In this document: one piece after another, positions 10,505 through 17,011 of the stretch
How the letters are laid out: each line of letters begins with the position of its first letter
Position numbering within the stretch: position 1 is the stretch's first letter
NCBI GenBank assembly: GCA_946530965.1
Contig: CAMNAK010000002.1
Location: 1-64,000, forward strand
DNA: 64,000 nt
Direction: 5' to 3'
Source: an uncultured Candidatus Saccharibacteria bacterium
GTDB taxonomy: Bacteria; Patescibacteriota; Saccharimonadia; Saccharimonadales; Saccharimonadaceae
Program-made: the position numbers and the translations under genes
Notes under the pieces: model-generated
Databases searched by the model: none
What the model was told of the DNA's origin: nothing
Seen by the model: only the letters and a program-made list of their open reading frames with translations

Positions 10505-10870
10505 CTACACGATATTTCTTGATGCCAAAAATAGCAAAGCAAATTCAATTAGAACAACTAGTAAAACAACCGGTATTGATAGGCCACCAAAAGATATGCA
10601 AAGAAGCAAAAACACCGGCGCCAAAGCCACAATAGAACCATAACGAAAGCTCTTGGTTCTAAGATTTCCTGAATGTACTTTGTTTACTCTTCCAAGCAAA
10701 GTAAAAAACAGCCTGCAGCAAAAAACTGCAAGCCCTAAAAAGAACACATAGCTTAGTACGAAAAAGAACAAAATACCAAATGGTCCTGCTTCGCTCGGCG
10801 AAAATAAGAACATGAGCATAACCAGCAAAAATAGCGAAATGCCGCTCAGTGCTAGTAGGATTTTATTCAT
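10505..10870 (-). CDS. Small integral membrane protein, unknown
   Basis: The 121-residue product has about four hydrophobic segments covering most of its length and short charged loops; no family is recognised. The frame opens at 10876, but the second Met (10870) is chosen because a TGATATAAT box ends 7 nt upstream of it. With 10876 as start the box would nearly touch the codon. It ends 39 nt before the next gene, which has its own -10 box. Confidence 0.7.
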   Translation of the reverse strand: MNKILLALSGISLFLLVMLMFLFSPSEAGPFGILFFFVLSYVFFLGLAVFCCRLFFTLLGRVNKVHSGNLRTKSFRYGSIVALAPVFLLLCISFGGLSIPVVLLVVLIEFALLFLASRNIV

Positions 10871-10981
10871 AAGCATAATTATATCACGGCCAAATGTTCT
10901 AAGTACGAAGCAAAAGACAAGAGGAAATTACTTCTCTTTTACTCATAATTAGACAAGGTAACACCCCTGCTACCCTACCTC

Positions 10982-11534
10982 AAATAATTCAGAAAAACCA
11001 ACAACAAATCTTCTGAATCATCTGCGATAAATTACGCTTTTATAAAGCTTTAATTCCAAAAATCCACTCCACTAGATTTCGAGAGATCAAAACTCTACAA
11101 AGAATAACCGATCCGAGAACCAGTAGTTCTCTTCTCTATGCTCGTTCCGATAAAGACGCGGCTGGCGACCAGACATTTAGGTAAATAAAAGTAAATCATG
11201 GGCTATGGTAGGGAGGCTTATCTGGCAAACAATACATTACTTATAGCCACAAGCTTTAAACCCCTACCGATAGCTTTTATTGACCGCCTCTCGTATAGAG
11301 AGGCATAGTCCATGCAGATTCTTAGCAATACTCTTTTGATGGGTATCAAGGTGCTAGTTTACTAAGCTTCTACGCGCTCAACGCCCTTACCTCTCGGTAA
11401 GTTTTTGGCGGAGCTTAGCTTACTCCTAGGTGTAATTTATGGCTAGAAATAAGCTTTCGCTACGCCAAAATACACTTTATATCCAATACTCTTTTTGTTT
11501 TTGTGCTTTTTGTTTTTTGTATTTGCTAAGCACT
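10982..11534 (-). ncRNA. Large structured RNA candidate, about 550 nt
   Basis: No plausible ORF exists here, but a consensus promoter (11541-11569) points into a run of strong hairpins on the minus strand. CTTACC-GAGA-GGTAAG (11386-11401, a GNRA loop) is nested in CGCC/GGCG (11382-11410). GCCTCTC/GAGAGGC lies at 11286-11304 and TTGAT/ATCAA at 11336-11349. A 12-bp helix with one bulge pairs 11202-11213 with 11262-11274. GAGAAC/GTTCTC is at 11115-11131 and CTGG/CCAG at 11162-11172. A TTCAGAA/TTCTGAA hairpin (10988-11017) followed by a T-rich stretch may end it. It does not match my recollection of tmRNA, RNase P, SRP or 6S RNA. Both ends are approximate. Confidence 0.6.
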
Positions 11535-11540
11535 GTCTAG

Positions 11541-11569
11541 ACTATAGCAAACATAAGCAAAATTGTCAA
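11541..11569 (-). promoter_or_regulatory. Promoter of the large RNA candidate
   Basis: On the minus strand TTGACA (11564-11569), 17 bp, then TGC-TATAGT (11541-11546). This near-consensus extended promoter has no gene behind it other than the structured region. Confidence 0.75.
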
Positions 11570-11970
11570 TAATTGTGTTCGTCTATCAGTTGTAATAACC
11601 ACAACACTACTATATTTTACAGGGGTAGCAGAAACGTGAATATTATAGTATTTTTTACAACAGGCTTGTTTAAAAATAAATATTCGTTGCGTATACGATC
11701 GTCCGACATGCGACCATTAAGTATCATTTTGCCCTACTTTTCTACCAGAACAATATACATAAAGGCCGTTTACTATATATAAAAGCAGCGAATACTGAAT
11801 ATATCTTTTACTCACCCCAGGAAAGTAAAAATTTGTCTACAAAGTCCAAAAAATTCGATTTCAAATCGCCATTTTTCGTGCGCGAAATTTAGAAAAAATT
11901 ATTACTATTTTGTTATACACCTTAACACTCCACCCCAATAAAAAATGTAAAAAATACATCAAAATTGTTA

Positions 11971-11999
11971 TTGACATTAGCATTATAGGCCTTTATTAT
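11971..11999 (+). promoter_or_regulatory. Promoter of the 12006 small RNA candidate
   Basis: TTGACA (11971-11976), 17 bp, TATTAT (11994-11999). The preceding 11570-11970 is AT-rich, with no ORF or RNA that I can support. Confidence 0.65.
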
Positions 12000-12005
12000 A
12001 AAAGT

Positions 12006-12120
12006 AGCTTTTGAACACAAATGTTGCACAAAAGCCAAAAACAAAAATAGAATCCAAAAAATATATAACTCCACACTCCACATAAAGAACCGGCTTTACT
12101 CGCAGTTGCCGGTTCTTTTC
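12006..12120 (+). ncRNA. Small RNA candidate, about 115 nt
   Basis: A good promoter is followed after about 85 nt by a strong hairpin (GAACCGGC/GCCGGTTC, 12087-12115) and a TTTTC tail. Between them only a 9-codon ATG frame without a ribosome-binding site is present, so a non-coding product is more likely. It runs toward the 3' end of tmRNA and stops before the tmRNA terminator. Its function is unknown, and a leader remnant is an alternative. Confidence 0.5.
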
Positions 12121-12126
12121 TTGGTC

Positions 12127-12186: not shown

Positions 12187-12554
12187 TGGTGGAGCTGCCG
12201 GATACCGCCTCCGGGTCCGAAAAATCTTCAATTGCGCATTCTACAAGCATAGTCATTTCTTTCTCTCGGCATAACAGGTGAAGCTGGAAATAACAAAACT
12301 TCATCTAGCCATGACTAGATTTTCGAGCATATCGACGTCGCGCGATCTACCTTAGCATCATGAGTATGATATTAGACTGCCCTATGATGTATCAGACATT
12401 CTAACAAAGTCGGATTAAATCAACGACTTAGGCGTAAGCTGGCATGTATGCCACATGCTTACTAGCAGTTTTTTCTGCATTTATGAACTGTACTTACGGT
12501 ACAAATCGACTCGCCTGCGCATTGTTAATGATTCGTCTAAACTAGATCAGCCCC
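12187..12554 (-). ncRNA. ssrA: tmRNA (transfer-messenger RNA)
   Basis: The 5' end GGGGCTGATCTAG at 12554 pairs with the 3' end GGCAGCTCCACCA (CCA at 12189-12187). The T-arm precedes the 3' end. The tag reading frame starts at GCA (12478-12476) and ends at TAA (12430-12428), encoding AEKTASKHVAYMPAYA. tmRNA with SmpB rescues stalled ribosomes and tags the product for proteolysis. The tag ends in AYA rather than the common LAA. An extended -10 box (TGATAAAAT, 12594-12599 for TAAAAT) lies upstream. Confidence 0.95.
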
Positions 12555-16406: not shown

Positions 16407-16615
16407 GTTACTTGCTTACCTCTAGAAACAAAGAACAGTTCCTAGAGATAAGCAAGTAACCGCCATAAGACAACATTAGAAATCGAGAAAAAGAAAATAA
16501 AGCAGCATTTTTACTCTTCGTGGCTGCGTTGAGATGAGCAACAGAAAAAGTGACTTACTTGATTCTAGAGACTGTTCTTTGTCAATAGAAGCAAGTAAGT
16601 CACTTTCTGTTGCTC
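16407..16615. repeat. Pair of inverted hairpin elements beside the RNase P RNA gene
   Basis: Hairpin 1 (16407-16460) has arms GTTACTTGCTTA / TAAGCAAGTAAC. Hairpin 2 (16536-16615) has arms GAGCAACAGAAA... / ...TTTCTGTTGCTC of about 24 bp. Read in opposite orientations both carry the same apical sequence ACAAAGAACAGT (16428-16439 and the complement of 16571-16582). Their stems differ by paired changes (TTGCTTA/TAAGCAA versus TTACTTG/CAAGTAA). Hairpin 2 directly follows the 3' end of rnpB and may stop its transcription. Confidence 0.75.
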
Positions 16616-16620
16616 GATCA

Positions 16621-16949
16621 ATAAGCCGGGTTTTGTCTCACTCCGATAAATCGAAGCTAGTAGTCATCTATCTAGGCGCACAATTGCTCATGCGCTCAAG
16701 CGGTGATCGACCATCTGCGGGTCACAGTATCTAGGTCTCCTTGCAGCGGATAGAGTTTACCCTGGCCCGATATCACTACCGCGCCCTGTGGGCTCTTACC
16801 CCACTCTTTTCACCCTTACCACAAAGTGGCGGTTTTGTTTCTGTGGCACTTTTCCTACGCTTACGCGCGGTTGCCGTTAGCAACTATCCTACCCTGCGCT
16901 GCCCGGACTTTCCTCTCGCCATTTTTCAGGCCAGCGACTACTCACGAGC
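16621..16949 (-). ncRNA. rnpB: RNase P RNA (class A)
   Basis: On the minus strand the conserved GAGGAAAGTCCGGGC and the GATAGTTGC/GGCAACCG region lie near the 5' side. The 3' end reads GTGAGACAAAACCCGGCTTAT. This is the catalytic RNA that matures tRNA 5' ends. A TGTTAAAAT -10 box (16956-16961 for TAAAAT) sets the start near 16949. The 3' end is approximate. Confidence 0.95.
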
Positions 16950-17011
16950 ACTTATATTTTAACATATTTTCAAGATAAAATAAAATTCTTATGTCAAACT
17001 AAAGAACTTAC

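Follow-up and report, generated by a model that had tools for sequence, protein, structure and literature searches.

The described RNAs that lie closest to the one reported here are tmRNA (RF00023), 6S RNA (RF00013) and the Ms1-type RNAs, the SRP RNAs (RF00169 and RF01854), and the large ornate RNAs of the OLE, GOLLD and ROOL classes. 6S and Ms1-type RNAs are ~200-300 nt long and are encoded by a single, strongly promoted gene copy that ends in an intrinsic terminator, and the OLE, GOLLD and ROOL classes are larger than the ~170-340 nt of the RNA described below. Here we describe RNA-A, which is encoded by an uncultured Candidatus Saccharibacteria bacterium (contig CAMNAK010000002.1) within a stretch of 64,000 nucleotides that was analysed as a whole and that we refer to as the window. 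Like tmRNA, RNA-A appears to be a structured housekeeping RNA of similar length, the two genes are neighbours in the window's family, and in a related genus, g27, RNA-A also holds a short ORF inside a structured RNA; this mini-ORF, however, sits at the 5' end and is confined to part of the family. With 6S and Ms1-type RNAs it shares a length of ~200-300 nt, single-copy status, a strong promoter and an intrinsic terminator, but it has no match to the 6S model and a different architecture. SRP RNA is comparable in falling within the size range of an abundant housekeeping RNA, yet its models do not match RNA-A and the order lacks the Ffh M-domain. The ornate RNAs resemble RNA-A in their multi-domain structure and lineage-limited distribution and differ from it in that RNA-A has no Rfam match, is short, occupies a fixed chromosomal site and carries an invariant motif with no exact match in viral contigs.

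Results

RNA-A lies in a gene-free region and has its own promoter

The locus comprises the following features.

10505..10876, minus strand: small membrane-protein gene, 123 aa, downstream neighbour of RNA-A (ORF)
11199..11534, minus strand: RNA-A, conserved structured RNA (DNA conservation, covariation, covariance models R1, R2 and R3)
11541..11569, minus strand: promoter, TTGACA-N17-TATAGT with TG extension (sequence inspection)
11971..12122, plus strand: RNA-B, with promoter at 11971-11999, RNA at ~12006-12122 and a GC-rich end hairpin followed by U's (locus comparison)
12187..12554, minus strand: tmRNA gene, a neighbour only in the window's family (Rfam RF00023)

The original prediction described an RNA of about 550 nt, driven by a near-consensus promoter across a region free of genes. 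The promoter is visible at 11569-11541, and no ORF of at least 50 aa occurs on either strand between ~10877 and 11572. An equivalent TTGAC-N17-TAnnnT element stands upstream of RNA-A at 35 of 45 loci, compared with 5.2% of control pieces, and we placed the start site ~7 nt past the -10 box. Folding the minus strand of 10982-11535 gave -177 kcal/mol against -134 +/- 6.8 kcal/mol for shuffled sequences (z -6.4), a value equalled by 0 of 100 shuffles. A DNA search of relatives recovered the region in 36 of 37 genus genomes, the window's own included, and the matches span only ~11192-11598 except in the ~98%-identical genomes G035 and G011. As a result, the conserved RNA runs from ~11534 to ~11199 and is ~335 nt long in the window, well short of the predicted extent. 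Nine helices, described below, are borne out by covariation, and the hairpins between 10982 and ~11198, matched in G035 and G011 only, find no comparative support.

RNA-A matches no Rfam 15 family

We compared the window and two relatives with the 4227 models of Rfam 15 at gathering thresholds and at relaxed E-values. This search, which had been suggested as a check, returned only chance-level matches for RNA-A in all three, and none to tmRNA, RNase P, SRP or 6S RNA. The same search found in the window the tmRNA gene, RNase P RNA at 16606-16951, the 5' end of 16S rRNA, and tRNAs. A kinship with OLE, GOLLD or ROOL RNAs, raised earlier because of a similar size, finds no backing, as the Rfam library gives no match and RNA-A is much smaller. 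We also considered RNA-A as a tmRNA and rejected this, since the RF00023 match is a separate gene and RNA-A lacks a tRNA-like fold. The tmRNA gene itself scores 77 bits against its Rfam model and is missed by ARAGORN. The literature that we searched, which left supplements, preprints and most subscription journals outside its reach, holds no description of RNA-A. Given the absence of an Rfam 15 match, this literature search and the strong covariation set out below, the prediction of an undescribed structured RNA stands.

An SRP RNA in disguise was rejected, as neither RF00169 nor RF01854 matches RNA-A and the order lacks the Ffh M-domain. None of 198 genomes examined in the order gave a match to this domain (PF02978), which was recovered in 14 of 14 controls; matches to the SRP54-type GTPase (PF00448) in the order are almost only weak and below cut-off, and no SRP RNA was found in the genomes tested. 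The SRP pathway thus seems to be absent from the whole order across these 198 genomes, and its loss has already been reported for CPR bacteria (PMC4508563, PMC8080830).

Could RNA-A instead be the functional counterpart of 6S or Ms1 RNA, which would make it an abundant RNA polymerase-binding transcript with global control over transcription? Its size, strong promoter and single-copy housekeeping character would fit such a role, and no 6S RNA scores above cut-off in 17 relatives, although this absence is weak evidence since the 6S model finds just 6 of 14 control genomes. RNA-A itself does not match RF00013, its ends are unpaired and it does not form a single long hairpin with a central bubble, so that we consider this role distinctly unlikely. 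A weak 6S candidate (locus L131, G038:C51:16563-16716) scores 32.4 bits against a cut-off of 46.4 and lies ~4.4 kb from the RNA-A hit.

Covariation supports nine helices

To define the RNA-A structure, we used a free alignment of 29 loci from the genus. The resulting consensus has 71 pairs in nine helices. From the 5' end, the elements of RNA-A lie in the window as follows.

11503..11533, minus strand: 5' hairpin GUGCUU...AAGCAC with an A-rich loop; most of the order's loci have a hairpin of this kind after the promoter
11470..11502, minus strand: A-rich linker, the site of the mini-ORF in the related genus g27 (locus comparison)
11404..11469, minus strand: P1 domain; its CUAGCCAUAAAUUACA is invariant in both the window's genus and g27 (alignment, covariation analysis)
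11386..11401, minus strand: P2, GAGA (GNRA) capped hairpin CUUACC-GAGA-GGUAAG (covarying)
11374..11384, minus strand: P3, small invariant hairpin GCGU/GCGC (alignment)
11314..11373, minus strand: P4/P4b, long-range helix pair with compensatory changes in 5/5 pairs of P4 and 4/5 of P4b
11282..11310, minus strand: P5 hairpin ending in GCGGUCA, part of the order-wide core (covariation)
11201..11275, minus strand: P6, two-part hairpin, part of the order-wide core (covariation)

Compensatory changes affect 27 of the 71 pairs among the 29 relatives, with 155 double-change cells against 41.6 +/- 6.0 and a score of 0.251 against 0.108, values that exceed all 500 column shuffles; the signal collapses when pairing partners are slid by 1-3 columns. 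The covariation test across related genomes that had been called for is therefore positive. The GNRA-capped stem of the original prediction corresponds to P2 and covaries, but comparative pairing places it between P1 and P3 and not nested in an outer pairing. The domains P1-P4 are additions that the window's genus shares with its close relatives.

The 3' domain extends much further. In an alignment of 45 more distant sequences (A7), 26 of 31 pairs show compensatory changes and double-change cells number 333 against 91 +/- 10; this alignment was fitted to the model and so favours the structure, for which a slide control and the recovery of these helices from the free alignment of the genus serve as safeguards.

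The structural data also bear on the idea that RNA-A is a trans-acting base-pairing sRNA that represses mRNAs through single-stranded segments such as GGUCAGUCA or the P1 loop. Invariant unpaired segments and the intrinsic terminators described below are what such an RNA would have. No target was found, however, and a pairing between the P1 loop (CUAGCCAU) and tmRNA (AUGGCUAG), present in the window but missing in many relatives, was rejected. Extensive covarying structure, as seen in RNA-A, is more typical of RNP RNAs, and we regard an sRNA of this kind as doubtful.

RNA-A is found across the order at a fixed chromosomal site

We built one covariance model for each half of RNA-A (R1, 5'; R2, 3') and a broadened model of its 3' domain (R3), which match the window at 11369-11469 and 11198-11319. 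Searches with R1 and R2 also detected RNA-A in g27 and a few other genera. R3 gave hits in 77 of 198 genomes from the order, representing 50 of 122 genera and 19 families, with no hit in several genera of the window's own family. Because E-values of weak R3 hits are rough, we trusted them only where synteny agreed. The same T4SS-type ATPase gene, whose product in the window is a 979-aa protein of the Pfam T4SS-DNA_transf/TraG type, is present at 20 of 20 distant loci, 16 of which also have comM, and it recurs at 11 of 13 further weak hits; the two weakest, which lack it, are probably false. Most of the weak hits are thus genuine, and the true share of carriers is probably higher than 77 of 198. 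No match was found outside the order in a 240-genome sample of the phylum, and an exact-motif scan of named genomes returned at least 116 stretches, in which all listed records are titled Candidatus Saccharibacteria and many come from ruminant gut. As far as tested, these searches place the RNA-A family within the Saccharibacteria order only. A phage or mobile origin was rejected, as the chromosomal site is fixed and viral contigs contain no exact copy of one invariant motif.

The position next to tmRNA emphasized in the original prediction holds in the window's own family and does not extend across the order, where the neighbours are instead comM and the T4SS-type ATPase gene; linkage to tmRNA as an order-wide rule was thus rejected. 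In genus g27, the orientation of tmRNA relative to RNA-A is inverted. One genome, G220, has two RNA-A copies (L045 and L053), each with its own tmRNA, and is possibly a mixed assembly.

Together, these data indicate that RNA-A is a real, undescribed structured RNA gene found across the order.

Terminators and a separate downstream promoter argue against a leader

Outside the window's family, RNA-A is ~170-230 nt long as estimated from promoter to terminator. This form, which prevails across most of the order, opens with a GUAAGU-AAAACAAAAA-ACUUAC-type 5' hairpin; P5 comes next, with GGUCAGUCA behind it, and P6, whose last bases are GGCUCCA, completes the core. At 22 of 45 loci an intrinsic terminator lies within ~110 nt past this core, whereas shuffles gave 2.1, and these loci are mostly outside the window's family; none was recognised in the window species or in most of its family. 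The short form and its terminators argue for a discrete, free-standing gene and not a leader. RNA-A has the further marks of a free-standing ncRNA, namely its own promoter, a covarying structure and no long ORF, to which many other families add a terminator of their own. Based on these sequence features, RNA-A is probably free-standing within the window's family, and outside it this status has good support.

The constancy of the flanking genes nonetheless raises the alternative that RNA-A is a cis-regulatory 5' leader, akin to an attenuator or riboswitch, of an operon encoding the small membrane protein and the T4SS-type ATPase, with the g27 mini-ORF as its leader peptide. Both neighbours are constant and the ATPase gene follows at all 20 distant loci. 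In such small genomes, however, gene order is kept anyway, as infC and comM are also retained, and in many families intrinsic terminators directly follow the core. In addition, relatives of both genera show a separate -10 box exactly six bases ahead of the ATG of the gene for the small hydrophobic protein, which matches no Pfam family; because of this placement, the gene is probably transcribed separately and leaderless. The terminators and the separate promoter weaken the leader explanation, which the constant neighbour keeps alive and which we judge unlikely.

A mini-ORF precedes P1 in one genus

At g27-type loci (L037-L050, L053 and L132-L207), the A-rich linker holds an ATG-initiated mini-ORF that is led by a Shine-Dalgarno sequence and stops just before P1. 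A scan with rigid Shine-Dalgarno spacing gave a weak signal, which became clear when 78 loci were examined with the stop position fixed: 61 have the mini-ORF, whereas shuffles averaged 3 and never exceeded 7. The encoded peptides are 2-13 residues long, rich in Lys and Arg and often end in Pro or Thr, for example MKKKRFKARNKP, MKKHKP and MKYK. Evidence for a mini-ORF is weak in the window's genus, with no convincing case in the window species, and no such ORF stands out in the short forms found in other families. These patterns suggest that, in the g27 clade only, ribosomes engage the elongated form and may affect the folding of P1.

The mini-ORF could also be taken to mean that RNA-A is mainly a micropeptide mRNA whose structure serves expression of the Lys/Arg-rich product. 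The frequency of the mini-ORF in this genus speaks for such a role. It is the RNA structure that is conserved, however; the peptides vary from 2 to 13 residues, and such an ORF is neither evident in the short forms outside the family nor convincing in the window species, making this explanation highly improbable.

A second RNA is transcribed divergently from RNA-A

Between comM and RNA-A, nearly all loci inspected (e.g. L093, L096, L098, L101, L110 and L112) contain a divergent element, RNA-B, composed of a promoter, a hairpin (AGCACUUGAAUAAAAAAAGUGCU), a linker (CAAAAACAAAAAC) and a further hairpin (ACAACGGCUUCUCGCAAGCCGUUGU). The second hairpin, which has a CUCGCA loop, covaries in 9 of 10 pairs, and in the window's family RNA-B carries CUCCAC motifs and a terminator-like end. 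Its best Rfam match is LhrC at 30.7 bits, far below the gathering threshold of 110. Because tmRNA separates it from comM in the window, RNA-B is not simply a comM leader. RNA-B is a second undescribed small RNA, and the A-rich 5' hairpin that it has in common with RNA-A suggests that the two share a partner.

Discussion

We propose that RNA-A is a free-standing ncRNA with a constitutive housekeeping function exerted in trans, most likely within a ribonucleoprotein of which it forms the RNA component, and we give this explanation as a whole a probability of roughly 0.5. Transcription of RNA-A would run leftward, driven by a strong promoter of the sigma-70 type that belongs to it alone, P5 and P6 would bind the ribonucleoprotein partner, and the A-rich 5' hairpin, also present on RNA-B, may serve as a shared docking or stability element. 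We infer action in trans because the gene has been kept vertically at one site and is transcribed apart from its neighbours. In a bolder and rather speculative version of this proposal, RNA-A would be a core housekeeping RNP RNA of the whole episymbiotic order, with a standing like that of tmRNA or RNase P RNA, and would act together with RNA-B on ribosomes, the secretion apparatus or the transcription machinery of cells that have neither SRP nor a recognisable 6S RNA, with one clade coupled to translation through its mini-ORF.

A genetic system now exists for Saccharibacteria (PMC10633639). RNA-A would constitute an RNA family not described before, without kinship to any of the 4227 Rfam models, and the claim of novelty applies to the family. 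Its conservation spans an order of Candidate Phyla Radiation bacteria whose genomes are very small and whose ncRNA appears to have been little studied. Because a dispensable RNA is unlikely to persist at a single site in 19 families with genomes of ~1 Mb, RNA-A likely has an important function in these organisms.
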